DNA from: Isoetes taiwanensis
Taxonomy: Eukaryota; Streptophyta; Lycopodiopsida; Isoetales; Isoetaceae
Assembly (NCBI GenBank): GCA_021234155.1
Contig: JAJEKV010000064.1
Span: 4,836,001 to 4,900,000, forward strand
Length of the DNA: 64,000 nucleotides
Direction of reading: 5' to 3'
Program-made: the position numbers and the translations under genes
Notes under the pieces: generated by a model
Told to the model about the DNA's origin: nothing
Database searches by the model: none
Seen by the model: only the letters and a program-made list of their open reading frames with translations
Shown here: positions 6,201-54,461 of the stretch, in pieces
Layout of the letters: each line of letters begins with the position of its first letter
How positions within the stretch are numbered: position 1 is the first letter of the stretch

Positions 6201-9086
<2,886 letters not shown>

Positions 9087-12065: not shown

Positions 12066-13239
12066 ATGGTTCTTGGGTTCCAAAGCGAGGTTAGAAGACC
12101 ACCAAGAAGATTTTGGATTGCTCCAAGGCGAGAAACACAATGGGATAATATAGATAACCACGCATGGAATTGTATAGCTTCCTTTGAAGATGATATGTGG
12201 CACCAATTTTACGGGATGAAGAGAGCCACATTTGAGAGACCGGTAGGTTTAATTGTGCCCTATCTTGTCGGGCCCGTATTAAAGTAAGGCCCCCTCAGAT
12301 CCAAGGAAAGCGGTTGCTATGGTTTTGTATTTTCTTGCACACGGATATGCCATTACATGTCCTGGCCGAGATTTTATGTTGGGAAAGCAACAAAGTCGTA
12401 AATATACCAAGAAAGTCACGCTTGTATTGGCTTCGAAGACAATGCTGTACAAACGTTTTGTTGCAATGCCTACAGGTGCAAGATTAATCCAGTGTATTAA
12501 GGAATTCCATGATGCAACTGGGCTGCCCAATGTATATGGTGCAGTTGACGGTTCCCATATTTTTTTATGGAGGAAACCCAAAAAAAAGGACAATGGGGAA
12601 GACTATTACAGCAGACATAAGAGGCACTCATGTCTCATGCAAGGAATTGTTACACATAGCAGATTGTTTATAAATGTTTGTGTGACCAGAACAGGTTCAG
12701 TCCATGATTCCAACCAGTTCAAGAAAAGCTCCATTTACAATAAAATTGCCTCAAAACAAATTTTACAGGAACCTGTGGTGACCCTGAGTGGTAGAAAACT
12801 GAAGAAAGGGCAGCCTACTGACCAGGAAGTTCAGGTAAATATTCCACCATTACTGTTAGGTGATTCAGCTTATTCCAGCAGGCCCTTTCTCCTCAAAGTC
12901 TTTCCTCAAAACCAGGGTGCATATGGAAAGTTTAACAGAAGGATCTGTAGGGGCAGAGTTTGTGTAGAGAATGGATTTGGGATTGTCAAGGAAAAGTTTA
13001 GAATTCTGAAACACTTGCCTGTGCATGTTGGCAAAGCCTCCAAGATTATACATGCATGTTGTGTTCTTTGGAACTTTTGTATAATGGAAGACAAGGGTTG
13101 GGATATGCTGCCAATTGAAGAAGACCCTCCACCAATATATTACTATGAAACAGAAGCCATTAACAGATCCTTAAAAAAACAGGGTGATCAAATGAGGCAC
13201 GTGCTATTTGAGAATTTGGATGGCCATGTCATCCTTTGA
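12066..13239 (+). pseudogene. Harbinger DDE transposase
   Basis: The main frame from 12319 gives 306 residues covering the whole DDE nuclease. The first Asp is in YGAVDGSHIFL, the second in LLGDSAYSSRPF and the Glu in CVENGFGIVKEKFRIL, so the catalytic triad is present. The N-terminal helix-turn-helix part is in another frame (12066-12287, with QFYGMKRATFERP). It joins the main frame near 12285, where PSDPRKAVAMVLYFLA is the expected continuation, so one frameshift separates them. The family cuts and pastes DNA at TWA targets with the SANT-like partner. Confidence 0.9.
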
Positions 13240-31956: not shown

Positions 31957-33647
31957 ATGTCGGCTCGAGGTTTCACTCCTGAAGAACTTCTTTGCCAAAC
32001 GGCGGCTCGACTGGAGCACCATCAATGACGCGAGGCTGTTAGGGATATGTATGACACTGCTTATGACATTGAGGGCGGTCGTATCCGCTCACGCGCTCAG
32101 TCGGCACCTCCTACCCCTCGTGCTCATTCTCGACCAAGGTCTCTCCCTGTGTGTCGTCATTGTTCCCAACCACAGTCTCCACAACATACCCCTGTTCAGC
32201 CCACGCCTCACTATTTCCAAACTCCTGACAACACCTATATCACTATTTCTTCAGGCCACACACCTCTCCCGTCACAACCATCTTCTCCTCCTGCTGGAAT
32301 GGGCTACCATCATGTCACCTTTGGCCCTTCCTATGTTCATGGCATTCCCACTTCTCCATCTTTTCAGCACGCTCTTCCTGTTTATCAAAACACGGATCTC
32401 AAGCCCAATGAGGATGGCTCTCAAGGCCCTTCCCCACCAGATGCTACTTTTTATGGACCACCGGGTTTTTCAGCCCCACCACCTTGCACTCAGTCTCAGA
32501 CAGTTCCACCTCTCTATGCTTCTGCCTATCCTCAACCAAATCCACCTGTCTATGCTCAAGTTCCGCCTTAATCCCCCACTCATAATTTGAAGCTGACTTA
32601 TCCCACTTTTGGCAACACTAAAGGCAAACCTCTGGATCAAAGTGCTTCGGCACACATGGAGGAATTTGAAGCCTTGGCCATTATGAACGGTCATGCGCAG
32701 CCACAACTCAAATTTCATATCTTTTCGACCACGCTCAGAGGCGCCCCTCATCAGTGGTTAATGGCCAATAAGAGTCACTGGAAACAAAGTTGGCAAGAAA
32801 TGAAAACTGCCTTTCTGTCTCATTATGGCACCACGGACGATGATCAGTTACTCCTCAAGCAACTCGATGACCTTCAACAAGAGCCCACGGAGTCTGCCCG
32901 GGATTTTGCGGACCGTCTTCACATTCTCGTCAGTAAACTCCAGGAGTACCCCACGCAAAGCCAGATCCTCGTCTGGTTTCTGCAGGGCCTTCCTCCTGCC
33001 ATTCGACTCATGACAGAATACCTGCGTCCCAAATCTTTGGAGCAGGCCATTGAATTGGTCAATCACTCGGTCAATGTTTCTTCTCGGGGTGTTGCTCTGT
33101 AGGAACTCCCTTTCATGCCCCCCGTTATGGTTCCTCAGAACTCTGTTCAACCTCAGCAAGCAAATCCACAACGCGCTCACATCTCCTGTGTAATCATGCC
33201 ACGGAAGAATGCACGCGATCTCATCCTACACCTTTTCGTAATAAAATGGTCTTTCAAGTCCAGACCACGCCTCAACAACAACCGTCATATCAGCCTCAGC
33301 AATATCCAGCTCAACAACCGCCGCAGTATCAACAACCGCAGCAGTATCAACAAACGCAGCCATCTCAGCAGTCACAGAGACAAGGCAACCGTCCTCCTTT
33401 TGATCCTTCCAAGGCTCAATGTTATCATTGTCATGAATGGGGTCACACCACCACGGCGTGTCCTCAACTGCCTCAAGTTCAAGTTCAACTTCCAGGTTCC
33501 AATCAACCGGCTTCTGTCCGTCTCACGGCTTATCAACTCTGGGTGGCCAACGGGAAACAGGGCCCTCGTCCTGTTTTGAGAAAGCCTCCTCGGCCGCCTC
33601 AACAACAGCGACCTCAGCAAGCCGCGTCTCCCGGGGGGTGCAACTAA
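31957..33647 (+). pseudogene. Gypsy Gag region (fossil)
   Basis: A Pro/Ser/Gln-rich N-terminal part is followed by the retrotransposon Gag core (residues reading WLMANKSHWKQSWQEMK and FADRLHILVSKLQEYP). A Gln-rich spacer and a zinc knuckle, CYHCHEWGHTTTACP, end it. Together these define a Ty3/gypsy capsid and nucleocapsid region. It is broken. The nested transposon sits at its 3' edge. Confidence 0.85.
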
Positions 33648-35039: not shown

Positions 35040-35810
35040 GTGACTCTAAACTGAGAGCACCCTTGTCTCCCGAACTAGGTGGACTGCAGAATTTGACAGT
35101 TCTTGATTTGTTGAACAATTCGTTCAATTCCCAACATGGCTTTCAAATTGCAGTACCCTTACTAAGGTAACACTGGCACACAACCATTTCCCAGACACTG
35201 TAATACCTGTTGAACTTTGTCACATGCAGAATTTGGAGTTATTGCCAACATGGTTTTCAAATTGCAGTACCCTTACTAAGGTAACACTGGCACACAACCA
35301 TTTCCCAGACACTGTAATAATACCTGTTGAACTTTGTCACATGCAGAATTTGGAGTTATTGTACATGGATTCAACTATGTTGAGTGGCCAAATACCGGGC
35401 TGCCTTGGAAACCTTACTAGCCTCAGATCTTTTATTGGGTGGCAACAAGTTGGCAGCTTTACCATTGGAGCTTGCCCAGCTGCAGAACTTTATACAATTT
35501 GCAATTGCATTTCAATGCCTTAAGCGGCAACATTCCACCTTGGTTTGGAAATCTCACTCTTCTTCAATATGTTGCCTTGGACAATAATAGTTTTACAGGA
35601 ACTTTGCCAGTTGAGCTTGGGCACCTAAACCGTTTGGTATTCTTCCAACTGTCTGCAACCACCTTGAGTGGCATGATCCTGGCTTCACTTGGAAACTGCT
35701 CATCACTTATACACTTCCCATTGCAGCACTTGATCCTTCTCCACTTGACCCTGCTCCGCTTGTTCCATCGCTGCTACTTGACACTATTGACCAACAAAAT
35801 AAGTTAAACA
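35040..35810 (+). pseudogene. Captured leucine-rich-repeat receptor fragment
   Basis: Plant-type 24-residue LRR units are visible in changing frames: LSGQIPGCLGNLTSLRSF, NIPPWFGNLTLLQYV and SFTGTLPVELGHLNRL. These match extracellular LRRs of receptor kinases. A stretch of about 100 bp is duplicated in tandem (about 35142-35242 and 35249-35352). No signal peptide, membrane segment or kinase is present. The fragment is a passenger in the TIR element. Confidence 0.8.
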
Positions 35811-36057: not shown

Positions 36058-36500
36058 TTATTGCTCATGAATAAGTCTGCCCTGATCTATTGCTCCAATG
36101 CTTGAACATGCTTTCAAAACGCTCAAAAATGTTATCTCATTCGGCTGCATGCCTTCACACTGCAGCCTTTTAAAACTTTCCAAAGCTAAAAGGTCTTGTC
36201 CATGTTGCACGTGTGCTGCAATGACGGCGTTCCAAGTCACAATGTTTGGCTTTAAACCTTCCTTCTGCATTTCCTCAAAACAATTCATCACTGAAAATGG
36301 TATTGACAAGCTACAAAGCGTTCCAGCCCTGTCAGACATACATTGCTTTGGGATGACACCACATTCCAATTTTCTATCCTTTGGAAGACTGCGAATGCAT
36401 CATCCAGACTCCCGCATTTTAAATACATGTCAATTAAAGAGTTCCCCAAGACATTATCTGATTGAAGGGGTTATGAACAAGACAAGGTTGCATTGATAAA
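36058..36500 (-). pseudogene. Captured PPR protein fragment 1
   Basis: Pentatricopeptide repeats read on the minus strand: CFEEMQKEGLKPNIVTWNAV, then FKRLQCEGMQPNEITFLSV, then LKACSSIGAIDQGRLIHEQ. This is the style of plant organelle RNA-editing factors (PLS class) abundant in ferns and lycophytes. Only about three repeats are present. Confidence 0.85.
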
Positions 36501-38581: not shown

Positions 38582-40853
38582 GGATCAACAAGCTCAGGAG
38601 GAAATTTATCAGGCTCTCAACCCTCCTGTCCAATATTCAAATTGGGTTGGTCTTGTCTCGCGTCACACACGGGCTTCACGCCCTTTGACCATTATTCCTC
38701 ATGACACGCAACCTGCTTTTGCTGTGGAAACTGTCCCTCATGACGATGATAAAAAAGTTCACTTCGCGCCTGATCTTGACAAACTTATGCCCCACATCAT
38801 GCCTAAAGTGAGACAAAGTATTCTGAAACTCATGCAGGCTGCGGAAGGTCGAACACTGGCAAATGTTCATGCCACCACGAGAGCTCAGCAGCGTCAGGCC
38901 GCACCATCATCATCCACCAGTGCACGCTCTCAGCCATATCCAAATATTGCTGCTGAGGTCGAGCTTCTCAAAGAAGTTTCTGCTTCTTTACCACAGTCTC
39001 CAGCTCCATTCGACCATGCGGACCCCTTTTCACATGTTCCCTTGGAACTTCAGGAAGAACTTGCCAAGATCAAGATTCCTTTGAGCCTGGCCACTATTTT
39101 GAAACTCTGTCTGGCTCTCAAAGATCAGTTACATCTCCCCACAGTTCTGGTTGGAGCTGTTGCGACTTCAACACCCACGGTGCATGCCACGGTGGGCAAT
39201 CAACATATCAATCATGTCCAAATTGATGGTGGTAGTGCCGTCAATCTCATTACTGATAAACTCAGGAAGCAATTGGGCATCAAACAATTATACCGTGCCC
39301 CTTATGACATCAAATTGGCAAATGGCAATATCACGCGCCCTCAAGGCGTCACTCCTCTTCTCCACATCGGCATTGGTGATCTCAAATTCCCCTTGGAATT
39401 TGGTGTTTGGAAAGCAGGAGAAGATCCTGGTGATTATGAAATGCTGGTTGGCCGACCTTTTCTCCGCCAGGCTAAGAGTATTCATTACTGGGCAACGGAC
39501 CAACTTGTTATCACTGATGGCCATCTCAATGCCACAATGGATCTGGAAACTGGCCAATTGATCTCTGTCGAGAATGCTGAATCTTCCATCTCAGACACCG
39601 ACTCTGAAGAAGCCCAAAATATTTATCATGTTCAAGCTCCTCCAGCGGGTCTACCTCTCTCCTCTTACCCTGAGTATGCTGATCCCTGGGGTGACATGAC
39701 GCTCGATCAGGACCAGGCCGTGGCGGCTCTCTTGGACCCTTACCTGGCTTCCTGCAATCGCATTCAACGTCTTGATCATTTCTCTGATCCCCTTCCTTCC
39801 TCAGAGACAGCTGATGTTCAGGCCGTCATGAAGCAACCCTTGCTTGATGACGCTCAGCAGCCTCTTTTCTTGACCACTCAAAATGCTGCTCCTCCCGTCA
39901 TGCTTCAGCCTCCTGCTCATCAGGTTCAGGACACGGAGGTTGTTCCTCATATTCAAACTCCAGAAGTGGAAATCGTGGACATTGGAAACAATCAACCAGT
40001 CTGCTTAGCTGCTAATCTTCCACCTACTTATAAAGCACGCGTTGTGACGCTGTTCAAGAAATTCAAACATATTTTTGTTTGGAGCTACAAAGACCTTCCA
40101 GGTATCAAAAAGGAATTGGGGGAACTCACCATTCCTACCAAACCAGATGCACGCCCAATCTAGCAACGACAGTACAGGCTCAACCCAAATTACCGTGACC
40201 GCGTCAAGGCCGAAATTGACAAACTCTTAGCTGCTGGCCTGATTTATGAGGTCAAACATTCTGAATGGGTGAGCCCCATCGTCATTGCTCTTAAACATAA
40301 TGGTAAGATCCGCGTTTGTGTGGACTATAGAAAACTCAATCAAGCCACGGAGCGTGATCATTTTCCGCTTCCCTTCACAGACCAGGTTCTTGAAGAAGTT
40401 GCTGGTCATGAGATGTACTCTTTCATGGACGGATTCTCTGGGTACAATCAAATCTCTATCAAGAACGAAGATCAACTCAAAACTACCTTCACCACCCCGT
40501 GGAGCACTTTTGCCTACAAGGTGGTCCCTTTTGGTCTCTCAAACTCTCCTTCAACCTTTCAGCGCATCATGCTCTCCGTTTTTCAAGACTTTATGAAGGA
40601 CAAACCTTTTCTTCAGATCTTCCAAGATGATTTTTCTGCCTACAGCTCCATAGATGATCACTTGGAGCTTGTCTTTCAAAAATGTGATGAATCTGGCACT
40701 AGTCTCAATTCTGAGAAGTGCACTTTCTGCGTCACCTCAGGCGTTCTGTTGGGTCATGTGGTCAGTAAAGAAGGCATCACAACGGATCCCGCATGTTGGC
40801 GCTCCTTATCAAGCCAACATGCATCGCCTCACCAATATTGCAAAGACCCATGA
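38582..40853 (+). pseudogene. Gypsy Pol region: protease and reverse transcriptase (fossil)
   Basis: The aspartic protease active site is in VQIDGGSAVNLI. Reverse transcriptase blocks include SPIVIALKHNGKIRVCVDYR, DHFPLPFTDQVLEEVAG, FMDGFSGYNQI and a modified catalytic box, IFQDDFSAY. The order and spacing are those of Ty3/gypsy Pol. It is broken. Later Pol domains are not recognised. Confidence 0.88.
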
Positions 40854-45063: not shown

Positions 45064-45193
45064 TCACTAATCGATCTAAATATGACCAATTTGGCTAAAA
45101 CAAAAGCCATTAATTGCTAATTCAACTTAATTAAGTAACTTCATACACTTATAATTTACTCTAAAACACTTTGTATTCACAAAATTTATGATT

Positions 45194-45224
45194 TAACAAA
45201 GTTTAAAATGAAACGCACTTATTT
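45194..45224 (+). repeat. Left inverted repeat of the methyltransferase element
   Basis: The 31-bp core pairs with 53869-53899. It is followed by AAACGCACTTATC, a partial second copy of its own inner half, and by the small palindrome GGAATCTTTAAAAGATTCC. Confidence 0.75.
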
Positions 45225-45616
45225 GCTGCAAACGCACTTATCAAGGAATCTTTAAAAGATTCCCTAAAATTCCCTTTAAAAAGTCCATTTTTAAGATTTT
45301 TTTTGTGACAGATGTGACAATTTACGTAATTTAGGTACCATTTTTGAGGGGTTGATTGAACATAACTTTCATGCAAAAATTTTAAATAGCAATTTTCATC
45401 CTCCTAAACTAGAACAAAAAATAATTACTTTTATAAAGTGTAGCAAAAAAGGGGCAAATAAAAAAAATAGCAAGGGTAGTAGAGTGACAAAGAAGTGATA
45501 TATTCATGGTTGTGAAAATTGTACAAAAATTATGAACAAAATTGTCAAAAATATAGGACATTTTGACAAACACTCATGAGTCATCACCTGCACTTTCTGT
45601 TCTTTACATGTTCGAG

Positions 45617-48600
45617 TCATCGGACAAACTTACATTTTGCAGCAAGATCAGGATGCATCTCATCCTCCGACTCATTTAATCCCTGATCACTTGAGCCTTC
45701 ATCCTCAGCTTCACTCTCAAAACTGAATGTACTCGAACGATCTTCTTCCTCAATGTCTACAAGTGAGTCTTCATCATCATCTTTTTTTGCCACCTTTCTA
45801 GGTTGTTTGTCTAATCCACATGCTGACCTTATTAAAGTTTGAGTGACCATACGTAACTTATTAGCAGCAGTCAGAACAAATTCATATGCAAGAACCTTTA
45901 CTTCAGCTAGATCTATGACAGCAGTGCTTGCTTTGGACTTAGCTCTCTTTCCCACTCCTGTTTTTACCATCTCCAAAGTATAACTCCCACTGAAAGCATT
46001 GGCAGCATTCGTTCCCATCCAGTGCACTTTTAATTGAGTGGGAATTCCATCCTCTCTTGTTACCTCCAGTACTTTAGCTAGCCAGAATGGCTTCCCAGAT
46101 TCATCATTATCAGCTTGAACAGCTATGAGCATTCCTTTCTAAATCTCTGAGACTGAACCAGATACTCGAGCAACTTGTTGTCTTTGTCGCGTCAGGGCGG
46201 TGTACATGACTCATCATCTTCATCCGAGCTAGCCAATATCTCTACATGTTCCTCTTGATTCTCAACTTGCACAGGGAGAGTTTGCCTAGATGGCCAGTTG
46301 AATGTAACTGGTCTTCGACCTTGTAATGAAGCTTGCAACATGTCACATTGCCGAGAAAAAAACTGAGGCCACCATAAAGCATCTGCCTCCCCAAAGTGGT
46401 TAGAGCACGACTGAATACTTGTCTCAATAAAATCCAATGATTTGTTTGAGTCAAATGCTCTTCCCTCTTTTTTACTCTTTGTGATTTCTTTCAAGCTTTT
46501 TAGAGGCATTTGCTCTGCAGAGAGCATGGAACTAGTATTGGGGATGGTGCGAATGAATTGAATACCTGCTGCTGGCTGCCACTGCAAGGATGTGGCATAT
46601 TTCTTTCCTTGTAAGATGGCCTTGCCATCTACAAGTGAAATTTTGATCTGATGCTGAAATGTAATGTTTCTCAAGGGCTCAATAGCACAGTGACCCAGTT
46701 GATTTCTCCGAAAAATCCATTCCTTGAAATCATAAGTTTCTTCTAATAACTCGATGTCTGGACGAGAATTGTAGGAATCTTGGATTACCTCAATCATTGC
46801 TGGTAGGCTGAGAGCTTTTTTTCGAGCAAGACGTTTAGAGAACCTACTGAACATGATCAATTTGATCGTGTGTATGACCAACAAGCAGGAAACCAATCTT
46901 CACCTTCTTGAAGATTTGTTTCTCAACTAGCATAGCACAGTAAGCGAACAAGGCCTGATTCTTATTTTCTCTTGTCGTGTTGTCTAGCTGAAGATATAGA
47001 ACCGGTGGTATATGTTCTAGATTGGAAAGAAGCTTAGTCAAGATTGTGATAGTGAGATTTGGATCAGCATAAATGTTTGGATAGTTCAAAAATGCCTTGC
47101 AAGATAGTTTTCCATTAAATACCATAGCACCAACAACATGCAGGTGTATGAAATCTTCTTCAGCAGCATCCTTAGGCACATTGACAAAATGTGGTAGGAT
47201 GGTCTTCTTCTGGTCCATTCCATCAATAACAACCGATATGTAGTTGAGTGGTTGCTCCAGTGCTTTCTTCCTATGTTTTGTCAATTTTCTCCTTTCTAAA
47301 GATTGTTGTTCTCTGTGCTTGTTCAGTTTCTCTTTCAATGCATCTGAAATGAAAACATGTTTAGGAAAGAACCTACTTTTAAGTAGAACTAGGCAAGAAC
47401 ACGTCCTGGAAGCTTACTTTTAGTGTGAAGTGTCCTTGCATTTTGTCTCTGAGCTTTTAATTCAGAGCATGTAGCACAAACAGACATCCGGTGCTTTCTA
47501 GGAATGGACACGCGGGAAAACTCTTTTTTCCAGAGCACAGTGAAGTAAGAGTAGCAGACATGGCGTTCTCCAGCCTCAAAACACATGTCCTTATAATTAT
47601 CCTAGACTTCACGTTTCGTGAAGTTGCCACTCAAGTGGTACATGGGGCTGTTAGGGAGTTTCTCGCAAAACTCCTTAAAGAAACCTTCCATCCAGGAAAC
47701 ACATTGAAGGGCATGAATTCTGGATATACCTCCTGAATGGCAGTAGTCATTAATGCCTGGATTCTTGTCAAGCCTTTTCTTCAGGCGGTCAAGTCGTCTG
47801 CTGCCTAAAGCATGAATCAATTTGAAGGCCGTTTGACAGACGGTGTGACCACCAGCTGTGTAAGTAAACCTCTCACCATAATCGGGCCTAATATTGAAGG
47901 CTAAGTAGCCCCTTTGGTCTAGCAGAGTCATTGAACTGTAACTATCACAAATCAACCTCAATTCCTTTAGTCCAATCTTAAGCAAACAACGTTGAGAACA
48001 ACAGTGCTTTGTATGTGTTGCCCTCAAGTGAGCCTCGTCCATGAGTTTCTTTCTTCTAACGGTTGTACATGCTTTCTTGTGTAAGTTACGCTTAAGATTC
48101 TTACTTGCAGGGGCTTTGAATTCGAACATGGAGTCTTGTGGCTTTGGTAGGTCCTCGTCTGAGAGATCAACATGAGGTGTTTCTTCGTCTGAGAGATCAA
48201 CATGAGGTGTACTAGTAGATGCTGAGAGGTTTGGTGTGGGCAAGTCCTGGGGGGAGGTGCTTTCCCTGTCTCTGGGAAAAAGTAATCGAGGTTGGTGACG
48301 TAATTGACCAGCTCCTGAAGTGTTGTAGAACACAGGAGTTGCATGGCGCTGACTGCTCCCACTTGTTGTAGTACCATTTAGCGAAATGGATGGAGTTGGC
48401 GTGATTTCCCTCCGGGGATGCAGCCTATGGTGGACTATGGGCGACGTGCTAAAATGAACTGGGGGAGGTAGTCTGAGCTCTCTAGCCTGTGGTGGAGTAA
48501 AACGCATTGGTGGGGGCAAACGACGTTCAGGAGCAGGGTGTGGTGGAGTAAATTGAACTGGTGGTGGAAGCCGAGGTGGTCGTGCTGGAGTAAACTCAAC

Positions 48601-48738
48601 AGAGCTGGGGGTTTGAATATCGGAGGCAGAATTTTCGAGGCTACTTCCAGGTGTCAGTTGAGGAGGTGTGAATGTCATTGCAGGAGGAAGCCTGCGAACA
48701 GGAGTTGGAGGCTCTGTAGTTCTTTTTTCTCGAGCCAT
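45617..48738 (-). pseudogene. DUF7869-type transposase-like protein of the element
   Basis: The preferred start is the ATG at 48738 (MAREKR), just below a palindrome cluster. The N-terminal 200 residues are Pro-rich repeats (RLPPPVQFTPPHP type). Then come a Cys/His patch (HTKHCCSQRCLL), FTYTAGGHTVCQTAFKLIHA and WMEGFFKEFCEKLP. After 47586 come VSIPRKHRMSVCATC and, past an intron (47339-47401), VVIDGMDQKK, LYLQLDNTTRENKN and GFLLVGHTHDQID. These last three blocks, with conserved Asp, Asn and His, are the hallmark of the DUF7869 family found in plants and animals, which looks like a DDE/RNase H-fold transposase. A C-terminal part (46132-45617, LIAVQADNDESGKPFWLAKV) looks like an SH3/BAH-type module with an acidic tail. 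The total is about 1000 residues. A few breaks (a stop replacing an expected Trp, a frameshift after the HTHDQID block, and a stop before the last module) make this copy inactive. The enzymatic role is inferred. Confidence 0.7.
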
Positions 48739-48763
48739 ACTCAGAAAGCTAGCGTCACACTGT

Positions 48764-48931
48764 ATAAATTTATACGACAGAAGAGCAGACGGTAAAAGTT
48801 TACACATGGATGGTATAAATTTATACAGAGAAGGCAAACTTGAAGCGGCAGACTGTATAAATTTATACAGAGATGGTATAAATTTATACGGAGGAGGGCA
48901 ACATAGAAAAGAAACGGTATAAATTTATACG
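48764..48931. promoter_or_regulatory. TATAAATTTATA palindrome cluster 1 (5' of the transposase gene)
   Basis: There are five perfect copies of the 12-bp palindrome, usually within GGTATAAATTTATAC, plus one weak copy (GGTAAAAGTTTACAC). They lie immediately upstream of the ATG at 48738. Each palindrome contains TATAAA on both strands, so it could double as a TATA box and an operator. Confidence 0.85.
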
Positions 48932-49031
48932 AAAACTCACAGACAGTTGTATTGAAAACTTTATGGAGAAGCGCTATACGAAACGGAACTTAGCAGAGGT
49001 ACTTAAGCCCGGTGCCGGCCACCCTATTTTC

Positions 49032-49038
49032 TATATAA
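49032..49038 (+). promoter_or_regulatory. TATA box of the ParB-methyltransferase gene
   Basis: TATATAA in CTATATAAGC lies 90 bp before the ATG at 49128. It is the only conventional TATA box between the two divergent genes that is not part of the palindrome arrays. Confidence 0.5.
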
Positions 49039-49127
49039 GCAGCTTATTGTCGAAGGCGCTCGCGGTGCGGCTTATATACCCCCCCTTATTTGCTCTCTAA
49101 AACGTCTATACGCGAGTCCATATTGTC

Positions 49128-52100
49128 ATGGCCACGTAAGTCTACTATCCGTACTGTTTTCGTTTCTCTTTTGTTTTAATCTGTTAGAGTGTAAGCGCCC
49201 ACGGTATAAATTTATACCGATATGGTTCTGGAGCGGTATAAAATTATACCGTTCCAGAACACAGTCGGTATAAATTTATACCGAATGTGTTCTGGAAAAT
49301 TATACCGTTCCAGAACACAGTCGGTATAAATTTATACCGACAGTGTTCTGGAACGGTATAAATTTATACCGCTCGAGCACGAGCGGTATAAATTTATACC
49401 GTTCCAGAACACAATCGGTATCTGGAACGGTATAAATTTATACCGCTTGTGCTCGAGCGGTATAAATTTATACCGTTCCAGAACCATTTCGGAATCTTGG
49501 TGTCTAGTGCTTAAAGAATGGTCCCGAACCTTAATATTTTAGTAATATTGTTGTGTTTTAAGCTTAAATGACACAAATAAAGTGTTAATTTAGTGTGGAT
49601 TTTATGCCCTTTCAGCCTCTTTTTTTTACTGTTTTTGTGTTTCAAAAAGTCGAAAAAGGTTCTGTTTCTTGCGTAAAATGGGTTTTCTTACGCTTTTTTC
49701 AGCCCCAAGATCAAGTTTACACTGAGAGGCCAATCATCAAAGGCTGCACCACCAGAGGCACAGACTTATGAACTGAAAGAACAGACTTGGTACGTCCACA
49801 GGGGCGCAAGAGAGAGCAAACCCACTGAGGCGTACCTTTACTTGTGCCATCAATCAGGGAAGGGCAAGTACAAGTCTGATGATTATTACCCTGCTGGCGA
49901 AATTATAAGCCTTGTTACTACAGAGAACGATGATGAAATTTTGATGAAGTGCAATCATGACAAGGGGGAGGTCTACTATGTTTTGAATAGTAGAATGCTA
50001 AGAATAAGCATGTGCAAGCCCAAAGAAGTGTATGATTACATTGCGGACAATTACAAGAACGGCTTTGTAAGTTATTCTTAGTTGCTTTCCGTATAAATTT
50101 ATACCGTCATTCTCTTAACTTAACCCTGCCTTACAGGACATAGTAGAAATTTTGATGTCAGTAGTGCTGTGTGAAGAAAACGCGTTGGTCAAGTGTTATA
50201 TGGTACCCCCGTACTATGGAAGAGGAAGAGAAGGACGAGGAAGTAGTAGAAGAAGAGGAAGAGGAAGAGGAGGAACCAGTCGTCACAAAGGGAAAGGGTA
50301 GGAAGCATTCCCTGGTAGTAGATACACAGCCTCCTACCAAGAAAAAATCTAGAGCCACAAAGTCCTTGACTATAGAGGAGTCAGCAGAACTCTTCAGAAG
50401 GCTCCTGGGGCAGATATCGTTGTGAAGCCTGCAGATAAGTCAAGTGCTATTCTCAAGCGGGTTAATGAAACTAAACTGCTCAAACAAACTATTTCTTTGA
50501 CATTGAGCACTATAAAAAGGCCGCCTAAGAATGAAGATGGGGTCAGAGTGCTTCAGGTCCGAAAGTTGTACGCGGCACATGTGGCTATCCTTAAGCAAAG
50601 AATGAGAAGGAATCCGCATGCGCATGTGTCGCCACTAGTTGTGATGGTTGATAGAAGTCAGTGCAACCAATTGAAAGATTACAAAAAGGCAGACTTCGAG
50701 GATTACACCTATTATGTACTTGGAGGCACACACAGTTACAAGGCAAGAAAAGAACTATCAAAGGAAGAAAGCCGTAACGAAGTGTGGAAAAGCGTGGAAG
50801 CGCATATTTACGTTGGTGTAACAGACGAAGAGGCAAAAGTCATTGCCGTGAGTCACAATCTCGACAATGACTTTAGACTAAAAATGAGCCTAATAGACAA
50901 GATTCGCTTCATGCACCGAGAGTACGTGGATTTCAAACAAGTGCATGGAGAGGACTTCAAAAAACAAAAGAACAAGCTTCAAGAGCTTCGAGAAGCCTGT
51001 GTGACAGAGTGTTGCCTCAGTTATGATTCGGATAAGAAGCCCATTATAGCTGTCAAACAGTACGATAACTACTTTCAGCTCGCTTTCAGAGATGGTCAAG
51101 TAAGTAAAAGCTTTAATTCAATCTTCTATAGTGTGTTTAGCGTGGTTAGAAGAAGTGTGTAATAGCCTGGTGACGGTATAAATTTATACCGCGCCCGGTC
51201 ATGATATAAATTTGTCTCCGCGTGTCGCGGTATAAATTTGTCCGCGTGCCGGGCGGTATAAATTTATCTGGATTCCGACGCGGTATAAATTTATCACAGT
51301 GCCGGTCCGCGGTATAAATTTGTGCGTGCCGATCGCGGTATAAATTTGTGCTGCACGGTCATGCGGTATAAATTTATCTCGATTCCCTGACGCCTTATAA
51401 ATTTATACCGTGCCGGTCATGATATAAATTTATACCGTTCGGTTTATGGTATAAATTTATACCGTTCCCGGTTGCGGTATAAATTTATACTGTTCCCGGG
51501 CACGGTATAAATTTATACCGTGCTTAGTCGCAGTGTCCTTTCTCTTACGCCAATCAACACTAAACTTCGTTTGACCATTTACAGGTGTGGGATCTTCAAG
51601 AGAGAATTTTTTGTATGTTCGAGGATGGTGAGCTTAAAGAACAAGCTAGCGCCGCAGGAAAGAAACCAAAAAAAGGAGGTGAATCAAAACAAAAAAATAT
51701 GAGCATTGTACCACGGACGCAGCTATTCTGGTCTCAAAAAGCAAAAGAAATATTTGTTCGCCTGTTGGAAAAAGTAGTTGCCAAAGAATTCACATTAGAC
51801 GAGATGGCTAAGGAAGCTAAGACGTAAGCCTCACTTGCTATGCCGTGTTCTTTTCTATCTTTTTTTGTCTTACAATACTTTTCCCTTTGCAGTCAGAAAG
51901 ATATTGTCACCTGCCAGGCCGAACTAATGAAGCAGCTCAACTTAGAGGACTGGGAGGAGTGCAAGCTTTTGTACCCAAGTTGCACCACAGATAGTATTAT
52001 CAGAGAGCACGCTGTTAACTTCAGTGGCTGGGTAGGTTTTGCAGAAAATATGTTCTGTGTTTGTGCCTTTGTCTCACATTATTCTTACAGAACAAGAAGA

Positions 52101-53426
52101 AGGGGCTACCAACTGGATTTTTAAACCTGGTTCGTAGGGCCAAGGAGGAGAGACATAGGCTTAAGGCAATTGAACAGGGTAAAGAGGTCGCCACCTCCAG
52201 TTTTGACACTACTTACGAGAGATTTACTACATTTGGTCAGGACGTCCAGTACAGGGTTGTTCAGGGTGACTGCACGAGGCTGGGGACTCTTTTAGACAAA
52301 CAAAACTTTACATTATGCATTGCAGATATTCCTTATGGCTTCAAAATCAAGGATAGCACTTTTGACGAGGAGGCGTTTACTCACGTGCAAGTCCGTTCTT
52401 TCTTGGATGGCCTAAAAGAAGTCACGGCATCTGAAAACTGGAGGGTCATCATTTTTCATTCCGACCTGCAGACGATGTCGGTGCTTAAACCTATGGGAGC
52501 GGTCTGTAACGCCGGCTTCGAAAACTGCGTTTGGTAAGCATTACATTTAACGCCTTTTTTTTACGGTAACTCCACGGTATAAATTTATACCACATCTGTC
52601 TTAAAGGTTGGAACAACCGTGGTATAAATTTATACAGCAAGGCAACCGTGGTATAAGTTTATACCGCTACACTACTGGGCTAACTTGTTTTCCTTGTTTT
52701 CTTTCTACTAATTTGTAATTGCTGCTTTGCTTGGCAGGCTTAAAACAAACGTCAAGGGTCATGGTGGTGGTCCGCGCTTAGTGAGTTGTTTCGAGCATTT
52801 TCATATAGGTTTTTACAGCGCGGACACCAAAAAAAACCATGGTTCATTTTAACACGCAGAATGAGAAGACTCCTCCCTGCAATGCATTTCAGTTCCCAGC
52901 TGTTTTGCAGAAATTGAGAGACCCACAGCGACAAGGCGCTGTGGTGTCCCATTATCAGAAGCCACAGCGGCTTATTAATAATTTGATACAGTGGTTTTCT
53001 CGCCCTGGAGACTGGATCCTAGATGCCTTTTCTGGATCAGGCACCACAGCAGTTTGCGCCCTTAAGCAGGGGCGCAATGTCGTCTCCGTCGACATAGACC
53101 CAGATAAAGTAAGTTTCATCAGGACCAGGATAAGCTCTTGCGAATCCTTTCCTGATGAAAACGAGGAACTGGGAGCAAAGAACGGTGCCAGCGATGTTAA
53201 GGGCACTTACACAGAAATACAGCCTCCACTTACAGGAAGAAAAGATGAGGAGGTGGAGTTTGTCGACTTGGAGCATGTGGTGCCCGAGCCAGAGAAACCG
53301 CCTGTGCCAATAGGTTTGGAATCAGAAGGAGGCGTCTCTGCTGTTGTAAGCTCGCAAGAGCCAGATCCCAAAGGGTATGAGAGTCCTGTGGACTGGGAAG
53401 AGCCACCTCCCCCACCTCTCGTATAA
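49128..53426 (+). CDS. ParB-like domain plus beta-class DNA amino-methyltransferase, eight exons
   Basis: Exons: 49128-49135, 49703-50066, 50137-50297, 50376-51099, 51585-51823, 51893-52031, 52091-52533 and 52738-53426, all GT..AG, joining to about 920 residues. The N-terminal 160 residues are of unknown type and are followed by an RG-rich tract (RGRGRGG). Exon 4 carries a ParB/sulfiredoxin-like fold: VRVLQVRKLYAAHVAILKQR, then the signature YVLGGTHSYKARKEL. Exons 7-8 carry the methyltransferase in the circularly permuted beta order. Motif IV, ADIPYGF (a DPPY variant), comes first, then motif I, LDAFSGSGTTAV, and SVDID. Such enzymes methylate the amino group of adenine (N6) or cytosine (N4). 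ParB-methylase fusions are known from bacterial phages and mobile elements. Here the gene is fully spliced and eukaryotic. A run of eight A at about 52829 puts the last exon out of step by one base, which could be an assembly error. The stop codon TAA is supplied by a TATAAATTTATA palindrome. Confidence 0.8.
49203..49482. promoter_or_regulatory. TATAAATTTATA palindrome cluster 2 (intron 1)
   Basis: Seven perfect palindromes, one variant (TATAAAATTATA) and one half copy lie in 280 bp, mostly as the 16-mer GGTATAAATTTATACC. The linkers are themselves inverted (GTTCCAGAACAC, GCTCGAGCAC), so the array is palindromes of palindromes. It lies inside intron 1 of the methyltransferase gene. Confidence 0.9.
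50088..50106. promoter_or_regulatory. Single palindrome in intron 2
   Basis: One perfect copy (CGTATAAATTTATACCG) lies within a 70-base intron, between the donor at 50067 and the acceptor at 50136. Confidence 0.85.
51174..51521. promoter_or_regulatory. TATAAATTTATA palindrome cluster 3 (intron 4)
   Basis: About six perfect and eight half or degenerate copies (GGTATAAATTTGT, GGTATAAATTTATCT) lie in 350 bp, spaced about 25-30 bp apart with GC-rich linkers of the CCGTGCCGGTC type. The degenerate copies are concentrated on the 5' side and the perfect ones on the 3' side. Confidence 0.9.
52573..52665. promoter_or_regulatory. Three palindromes in intron 7
   Basis: Two perfect copies (about 52577 and 52623) and one variant (TATAAGTTTATA, about 52652) lie between exons 7 and 8. 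Confidence 0.85.
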
Positions 53427-53436
53427 ATTTATACAG
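53421..53436. promoter_or_regulatory. Palindrome forming the stop codon of the methyltransferase gene
   Basis: The coding frame ends CTC GTA TAA inside CGTATAAATTTATAC. The gene therefore stops within a copy of the palindrome. Confidence 0.85.
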
Positions 53437-53868
53437 ACATAGTTCTTAACTACTTCCATTGTAAACTATATAATTATAATTTATTTTGATGAAGGATTTT
53501 TCAACTGAAAGCTTTGTCTCTTCAACAATGCTTGATTGAAATAACTCTTTCTTGCTCCATGATTTCACACTCTTTATCTTTCCAATGTCTGACTTTCTTA
53601 GTACATATATTAAGCTTGCAAAAAGACAAACTATATTTCCCTCTCTTTTTAACAATAAATATTTACTAAGTTATCAAAATTAAAGTCTCACTCCTCAAAA
53701 CAAGCATTTTTTTTTTTGCCCTCTTTTAAAAATGAAAACGCTTCAAAAATGTTGCTTTTTTGGGGGTGTCCCGAATGCTAATTGCTCAACAATCTATTTT
53801 GCTCCCTATTTTGTGTGTTTTTTTCAAGTTTTTAATTTTTATAAAGGAATCTTTCAAACGCACTTCTT
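53437..53868. other. 3' untranslated and subterminal region of the element
   Basis: AT-rich, with a T-run at about 53709. The minus-strand ORF 53446-53655 has no recognisable domain. Confidence 0.4.
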
Positions 53869-53900
53869 AAATAAGTGTGTTTCATTTTAAACTCTGTTAT
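53869..53900 (-). repeat. Right inverted repeat of the methyltransferase element
   Basis: Complement of the left core at 45194-45224. The stop codon of the histone H3-like gene lies fewer than ten bases outside it. Confidence 0.75.
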
Positions 53901-53908
53901 TTACGAAA

Positions 53909-54461
53909 TTAATAAGGCTTTCCTTTAATATGACTGGCCAAGTGCATATCTTTCTTCATTAGAGTTACTCTCTTGGCGTGTACTATGCAGGCTGTTGAGT
54001 CTTCAAAATGTTGGACCAGCTTCTGCTCTGCTGCTTCTTGAACCTTGGCCTCCCGCTCTCGTTCTGCCCTCTCCTCTTCTTGTATCTCCCGCTCTATTTG
54101 CTCGTACACTTCTTGGGTCTCTTCATCCATTGAACCCGGAGATCCAATGTCCTCTTCCTCTAGTGCTTCCGTTGATCCCTAGGATCCCTACTCCTGGGCT
54201 GGCTGGTCCCCTTCTGTTGGCTTGGAGGAACTCCCTACCTCCAGGTTTGGGTTGAAGTCCTCGTCATCTGAATCATCGGAGGAGGCTGGCTGGTCGGCTG
54301 GCCGTTCCTTGATGACTACCTTGACATTCGGGGTCTTCTTCGTCTCTCGCTTGGGCTCCTCCACGCCTTTGCCCTTCCGCTTCTTCTTTTCTTCGGCCTC
54401 CTTGGCCTCTGGCTGTTTCGCCTTGTCGAGGAAGTCAAGCGGTCTGTTTGGTGCGCGCCAT
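53909..54461 (-). pseudogene. Divergent histone H3-like gene
   Basis: The minus-strand ATG at 54461 opens with the exact histone H3 tail MARTKQTA, then stops. The next frame reads on as LDFLDKAKQPEAKEA and GKGVEEPKRE, which aligns loosely with the rest of the H3 tail (KAPRKQLATKAA, GGVKKPHR) with many Lys replaced by Glu. A putative 60-bp intron (GTAGGG..CCTAG, 54182-54241) removes two stops. The end is unmistakable H3: QEAAEQKLV, HFEDSTACIVHAKRVTLM, KKDMHLA and IKG, covering the end of helix alpha-2, loop 2 and helix alpha-3. The middle is a long acidic insert. A TATA box lies 94 bp upstream. It is either a decayed H3 gene or a strongly changed H3 variant. It lies within the outer hairpin repeats. 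Confidence 0.75.

Follow-up and report, generated by a model that had tools for sequence, protein, structure and literature searches.

The closest systems described so far come from algae and from Arabidopsis. In Ectocarpus, the transposon Sola1-1_Ec32 carries a gene with ParB-like and methyltransferase parts opposite its transposase gene, green and red algal cases are also mentioned, and proteins of this kind are proposed there to bind the transposon that encodes them and to modify it (PMC12477816). The VANC21 protein of Arabidopsis binds to YAGTATTAY motifs, which form arrays in the introns and upstream regions of VANDAL21 elements and are missing from the coding probes that were tested; VANC triggers a loss of DNA methylation (PMC5735166). 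Here we analyse a stretch of 64,000 nucleotides from the quillwort Isoetes taiwanensis (contig JAJEKV010000064.1; G000:C1072:4836001-4900000 in our numbering), hereafter the window, in which positions 45195..53898 hold an 8704-bp DNA transposon with two divergent genes, one for a DUF7869 protein and one for a ParB-like/DNA methyltransferase protein (the methylase); the palindrome GTATAAATTTATAC recurs about 24 times in the introns and upstream regions of this element. We propose, with a probability of roughly 0.58, that this is a transposon with a DUF7869 protein as its putative transposase and with a self-addressed amino-methyltransferase that would act on the palindromes of its own family.

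The genome searched comprises 1,658,258,908 bases in 1110 contigs. Alignment of its copies of the element with the window starts near 45195 and stops near 53898, and these common boundaries are flanked by a 4-bp duplication. We call this DNA transposon (45195-53898), whose ends begin with AACAA, and its close copies family A. Both hallmarks of class II DNA transposons, terminal inverted repeats and a target duplication of fixed length, are present. The 8.7-kb unit bounded by inverted repeats that a first-pass annotation of the window had proposed is real, but its limits, 45183..53910, were too wide by 12 bases on each side. An alignment of copies, which that annotation had suggested for defining ends and target duplications, gave a matching 4-bp duplication in 13 of the 14 copies of family A that were read at both ends (window counted). 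Read by eye from the copy-end output, the duplications vary: ATTT, AGAC, GGAT twice, TTTT, CCTT, TATG, TTAA, TTGG, GCTG, ACCT, ATAA and TTGT. The main features of the window copy are these.

45191..45194, unstranded: left target site duplication, ATTT (4-mer match in the copies just counted)
45195..45224, plus strand: left terminal inverted repeat, AACAAAGTTTAAAATGAAACGCACTTATTT (self-comparison and copy comparison)
45617..48739, minus strand: gene of the DUF7869 protein, putative transposase (PF25273 at 122.8 bits, ratio of nonsynonymous to synonymous substitution rates, dN/dS, and a sister frame of 987 amino acids)
49128..53426, plus strand: ParB-like/DNA methyltransferase gene, seven exons (GT-AG junctions; N6_N4_Mtase at 58.1 bits; CcrM at E 1.8e-8)
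49128-49135, 49703-50066, 50137-51099, 51585-51823, 51893-52031, 52091-52533 and 52738-53426, plus strand: methylase exons (GT-AG junctions; three exon ends set by eye, exons 3 and 5 ending one base later than computed)
53869..53898, minus strand: right terminal inverted repeat, AACAGAGTTTAAAATGAAACACACTTATTT (self-comparison and copy comparison)
53899..53902, unstranded: right target site duplication, ATTT (same comparison of 14 copies)

The most telling feature of the element, absent from the first-pass annotation, is its palindromes. The window contains 26 matches to GGTATAAATTTATACC with at most two mismatches, where 0.01 are expected, and all of them lie inside the element, from 48761 to 53435, in the following unstranded groups.

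48761..48931: cluster of 5 sites upstream of the DUF7869 gene (pattern scan)
49203..49474: array of 8 sites in methylase intron 1 (pattern scan)
50090..50105: single site in methylase intron 2 (pattern scan; a single inter-array site is also found in several other copies)
51175..51519: array of 8 sites, with more degenerate ones, in methylase intron 3 (self-comparison and pattern scan)
52576..52665: 3 sites in the intron preceding the last methylase exon (pattern scan)
53420..53435: site overlapping the methylase stop codon, GTA TAA (pattern scan; a coding edge is touched in 12 of 15 copies)

None of the window sites is less than 3.5 kb from the left end of the element or less than 460 bp from its right end. 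Genome-wide, the exact family A 16-mer occurs 7,218 times and its reversed control 0 times; this number, like that given below for family B, counts exact matches, which were assigned to elements one by one only within the loci examined. In 20 fetched 10-kb stretches the 12-bp core is found 6 to 25 times per stretch, and in viral contigs the exact palindrome occurs in 34 stretches with one site each. No site with at most one mismatch falls inside coding sequence (0 of 316 in 15 copies), which makes up 68% of copy length; for this count the right end of L050 was assumed rather than read. The sites carry 1.7-2.0 bits of information at 14 core positions, less than 1 bit at the two positions flanking these on each side and at most 0.6 bits beyond. 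Since the sites for this profile were chosen by their core, a half-site test was run in addition: 718 of 850 occurrences of GTATAAA in family A stretches are followed directly by TTTATAC (each palindrome counting on both strands), against none of 10 elsewhere in the window.

Two other explanations bear directly on this arrangement. The palindromes may be operators by which the methylase protein adjusts how both genes are transcribed or spliced, methylation being a switch or a by-product; sites that precede the transposase gene, occupy methylase introns and overlap the methylase stop codon would suit such a function. More than 20 sites over 4.7 kb are, however, many for an operator, and we consider this explanation unlikely. 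It is also conceivable that a hairpin-forming repeat expanded neutrally within introns and that the methylase is a passenger. The spacings near 30 and 42 bp in the arrays resemble tandem expansion, but the core is conserved against poorly conserved flanks, with which the half-site test agrees, single sites recur at similar places in several copies, dN/dS is far below 1, and a different palindrome occupies comparable places in a sister family. A neutral origin appears very improbable.

This sister family, B, came to light in L067 and L068, two stretches picked for distant DUF7869 matches, whose transposase segments are 67.6% and 68.7% identical to that of the window, respectively. L068 shows the divergent two-gene layout, AACAAG ends, a CATT duplication and a methylase that matches through to its C-terminal part, with 48% identity to the window in the ParB-like region and 50% in the catalytic region; the element ends of L067 were not found within its stretch. 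The family A palindrome is absent from both stretches. A second palindrome, GTATTCCGGAATAC, often extended to CCAAAGTGTATTCCGGAATACACTTTGG, lies between both genes in L067 and L068 and additionally in a methylase intron of L068. This exact 14-mer occurs 3,720 times genome-wide and its control 0 times, and six further family B stretches, in which exon 6 is 74 to 90% identical to that of L068, carry the same tag or a form changed at its centre. Both tags have a common frame, GTAT-N6-ATAC. As exact 14-mers, they are found together in none of 40 loci (33 distinct copies), where family A loci were found by window similarity, family B loci by L068 similarity or as distant matches, and copies within a family are not independent. 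The A tag without the B tag is found in all 32 loci of family A, which represent 25 distinct copies, while the A tag is lacking from all 8 family B loci and the exact B tag is present in 7 of them; the eighth, L072, has neither exact form and five GTATTC(CA/TG)GAATAC sites. A tag that changes with the family, sits where protein binding would leave coding undisturbed, occurs within and around the methylase gene and avoids the ends has the anatomy expected of a self-address.

Since family A differs from family B in both proteins, the palindrome could follow the transposase instead of the methylase, a point that counts against our proposal. The palindromes would in that case be binding sites of the DUF7869 transposase, which itself diverges between the families (67-69% identity in the compared segment). 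Transposase sites are usually terminal or subterminal, however, and the distances of the window sites from both element ends do not fit this pattern; we judge this explanation slightly less likely than the operator one.

The methylase protein begins with an N-terminal part and continues through an acidic linker and a ParB-like region to a beta-class DNA methyltransferase, and the following segments stand out.

50353..51099, plus strand: ParB-like region with LGGTHSYKAR and TDEEAKVIAVSHN (weak profile matches; dN/dS 0.041 over 50407-51100)
52322..52342, plus strand: putative catalytic motif IV, ADIPYGF (DIPYG in 18 of 21 copies, ADLPYG in the sister copy L068)
53019..53054, plus strand: predicted AdoMet-binding motif I, LDAFSGSGTTAV (N6_N4_Mtase profile and copy comparison)

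The N6_N4_Mtase profile matches at 58.1 bits in the window and at 61 bits, the cut-off being 26.7, and motif IV precedes motif I, the order of beta-class N6/N4 methyltransferases. The usual catalytic motif of this class is (D/N/S)PP(Y/W). In both families motif IV reads D(I/L)PY, with the first proline of the usual DPPY replaced, so the protein is a candidate methylase as regards activity. For the ParB-like region, weak matches were obtained to PHROG 723 (ParB-like, E 0.024) and, with the sister-family region, to NCBIfam TIGR03764 (ParB family, E 0.038) and Pfam DUF6551 (E 0.008), all of which fall over the GGxHS(Y/F)KA region. In a comparison with five phage methylases the region aligns in the expected register, at E 0.3 only.

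The DUF7869 profile (PF25273; Pfam cut-off 26) matches more strongly in L067, at 173.7 bits, than in the window. The blocks IDGMDQ, LQLDN and GHTHDQID are conserved across copies and may have functional roles, and the motifs that the first-pass annotation had quoted from both proteins are all present in the sequence. Its profile assignments held for DUF7869 and N6_N4_Mtase, whereas the Pfam scan of the element proteins matched no ParB family and left the ParB-like part with the weak matches given above. Of the two divergent spliced genes it described, the divergence and the splicing of the methylase, in seven exons with GT-AG junctions, stood; the DUF7869 gene is a single open frame of 987 amino acids in L067, and a short GT-AG intron can be drawn by eye in the window copy near 47346-47421. 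The window methylase gene has frame breaks near 50210, 50415 and 52835. In the DUF7869 gene there is one near 46850, together with two stop codons (46192-46194 and 46139-46141) that may alternatively bracket a short intron. The open frames of other copies run longer at these break positions. The window copy is probably decayed, with long-read homopolymer errors as a possible alternative cause of its frame breaks. We infer that the element is a cut-and-paste transposon and that the DUF7869 protein is its transposase. As a side observation, the C-terminal part of the DUF7869 protein (45617-46138) and the first large methylase exon (49703-50066) each resemble, by eye, a small beta-rich (Tudor or SH3-like) domain; Pfam reported nothing significant over either segment.

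The two genes are paired at many loci of the genome. The last methylase exon has at least 150 matches (150 scored of 3015 candidates), the DUF7869 segment at least 150 (150 scored of 8666) and the ParB-like exon at least 143 (143 scored of 3399), all of these counts being lower bounds. Among the 150 matches listed for each gene, at least 43 methylase matches have a DUF7869 match within 12 kb, where chance would give 0.33, and all of these are divergent with the DUF7869 match upstream; 33 of the 43 are spaced 5.4-6.2 kb. The expectation that the two genes would be found side by side was confirmed in this way. A bacterial contaminant or an assembly artefact might be suggested by the methylase domain family, which is mainly prokaryotic as judged by tblastn in phages and by comparison with solved structures. 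This possibility, which the first-pass annotation had named as one that would refute its proposal, is negligible in view of the introns, the target duplications and the at least 150 matches dispersed over many contigs, several of them longer than 10 Mb. No relative came up when phage DNA was searched at near identity with the element, or viral contigs with one segment of each protein; in phages, tblastn returned the general methylase domain only (best E 5e-8 among the matches listed) and nothing significant with the ParB-like exon; and a narrow scan of prokaryote genomes with two peptide patterns matched 32 stretches, among which no relative was confirmed. Contamination, a chance inverted repeat and a chance gene pairing were rejected on the copies, the target duplications and the pairing frequency.

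Both genes are maintained under purifying selection, the methylase as a whole more strongly. Median dN/dS is 0.124 for the methylase (17 copies; 106 of 136 pairs usable, the rest being undefined or saturated and dropped). By segment (18 to 21 copies) it is 0.280 in exon 2, 0.041 in the ParB-like segment 50407-51100 (137 of 171 pairs usable), which is the lowest among eight segments, and 0.112, 0.114 and 0.160 in the others, exons 1 and 5 being left out together with those parts of exons 3 and 7 that precede their frame breaks. The transposase segments give medians of 0.247, 0.364 and 0.398 (18 or 19 copies; all 171 pairs usable for two segments, all 153 for the third). Such strong constraint on a methylase within a transposon would also be expected if the enzyme and its sites served transposition itself, for example by marking the donor against self-insertion or by timing excision after replication, and methylation does control some bacterial transposons. 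The sites, however, lie away from the element ends, and we regard this role as improbable, less so than a neutral origin. Median synonymous divergence (dS) among 17-21 family A copies is 0.40 in the methylase against 0.10-0.14 in the transposase segments, for which gene conversion or unequal rates could be the cause. This difference led us to consider a reshuffling of methylase and transposase halves among copies, which we do not claim because the pairwise distances of the two halves correlate at 0.78-0.85.

We propose that the self-addressed methyltransferase works as follows. The product of the second gene would be a sequence-addressed DNA amino-methyltransferase, whose ParB-like part, or another part of the protein, would bind GTATAAATTTATAC in family A or GTATTCCGGAATAC in family B. 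Since the accessory protein looks like a writer, the mark would be N6-methyladenine (6mA) or N4-methylcytosine (4mC), placed by the beta-class catalytic domain on or near the palindromes. Such a mark may keep the promoters and introns of the element open against host silencing or, alternatively, may tell self from non-self DNA during transposition. The action would resemble that of VANC in VANDAL elements, with a foreign mark being written rather than 5-methylcytosine (5mC) removed. The idea of the first-pass annotation that the methylase might mark its own or host DNA finds indirect support in the family-specific palindromes. A bolder reading, possible but on balance doubtful, would be an epigenetic code belonging to one transposon lineage of a land plant, in which a ParB-derived reader joined to a bacterial-type amino-methylase addresses family-specific palindromes in introns and upstream regions with 6mA or 4mC, marks unused in silencing by the plant, so that each family protects itself alone and reader and address change together when families split.

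Several observations weigh against the self-addressed methyltransferase. Within the methylase protein no separate DNA-binding domain was identified, and the ParB-like assignment depends, weakly, on several matches that agree in place, no single one of which is significant. Of the 21 copies compared, L046 and L063 have an altered DIPYG motif and L060 has a gap there, and stops occur in the compared methylase segments of 9 of 16 other copies. The L067 stretch matched the methylase in its N-terminal part only, and 107 of 150 methylase matches have no DUF7869 partner within 12 kb among the matches listed (150 for each gene). L062 is the one family A copy of 14 without a matching duplication, and L046 and L064, which both lack part of the element, have 6 and 10 palindrome cores, respectively. 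Copies with exchanged family A and family B halves were not encountered among those read. Finally, 14 of 18 changed GTATTCCGGAATAC centres in the family B copies L067-L074 (46 sites) are CG to CA or TG; such centres match the decay of 5mC, so the host may methylate family B sites, and the pattern suggests host 5mC on some family B copies.

Elsewhere in the window, a profile scan reports a transposase at 12283-13236 (DDE_Tnp_4, 89 bits), which we take to be of PIF/Harbinger type. Fragments of retrotransposon type, gag (with Ty3_capsid) and reverse transcriptase, lie at 32572-33099 and 40164-40850, and pieces of plant-type genes at 7927-8355, 35107-35520 and 36061-36399, namely Glyco_hydro_14 (beta-amylase family), leucine-rich repeats and pentatricopeptide repeats.

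Compared with known enzymes, the quillwort methylase shares with CcrM and other beta-class methyltransferases the N6_N4_Mtase domain and the placing of motif IV before motif I, and CcrM is its best solved relative. It differs from these enzymes in having D(I/L)PY for DPPY, large N-terminal additions, introns and a eukaryotic host. Phage ParB-methylase fusions such as Touem01 likewise have a ParB-like part before a beta-class methylase, with the same register of GH and E-A motifs, although the similarity of the ParB-like parts is not significant (E 0.3). In ParB-parS systems the ParB protein binds palindromic sites; the quillwort element holds palindromes, to which its ParB-like protein may bind. 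Fungal DNA transposons with TET/JBP (PMC12730594) and retrotransposons with DNMT (PMC5890265) also bring their own DNA-modification enzyme, but the enzymes and the elements are different ones, as far as the available parts of these reports describe them.

In the literature searched, which leaves most subscription journals outside it, there was no description of the quillwort element, of a DUF7869 transposase or of the tag arrays. To this extent the element and its DUF7869 gene are undescribed, as the first-pass annotation had held, whereas ParB-methylase genes in eukaryotic transposons are already in print for algae (PMC12477816), and the family-specific palindrome tags are what is new here. 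Sola1-1_Ec32, from a brown alga, is 21.5 kb long and has a Sola1 transposase, whereas the quillwort element, from a land plant, has 8.7 kb and a DUF7869 protein; the accessible text on the former mentions no repeated binding sites, in contrast to the family-specific palindromes here (PMC12477816). The self-binding proposal made there would gain named sites, with two protein families and two palindromes. A transposase function is also suggested for DUF7869, so far a domain of unknown function. Should our proposal hold, a vascular plant would have 6mA or 4mC placed at known sites; whether 6mA exists in eukaryotes, and what it does there, has been a matter of controversy (PMC12695648).

The likeness to VANDAL21 and VANC21, as far as the available part of that report goes, lies in an accessory protein and in short non-coding motif arrays that change between related elements (PMC5735166), and such arrays, differing between families, are present in the quillwort element. 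The transposases differ. VANDAL elements are Mutator-like, and in the Pfam scan the quillwort element proteins matched DUF7869 but none of the Mutator families. VANC brings about a loss of 5mC and is no methyltransferase, whereas the quillwort protein is methyltransferase-like. The comparison concerns the way of working. Such an element, if our proposal is true, would provide a second route to transposon self-recognition beside VANC.

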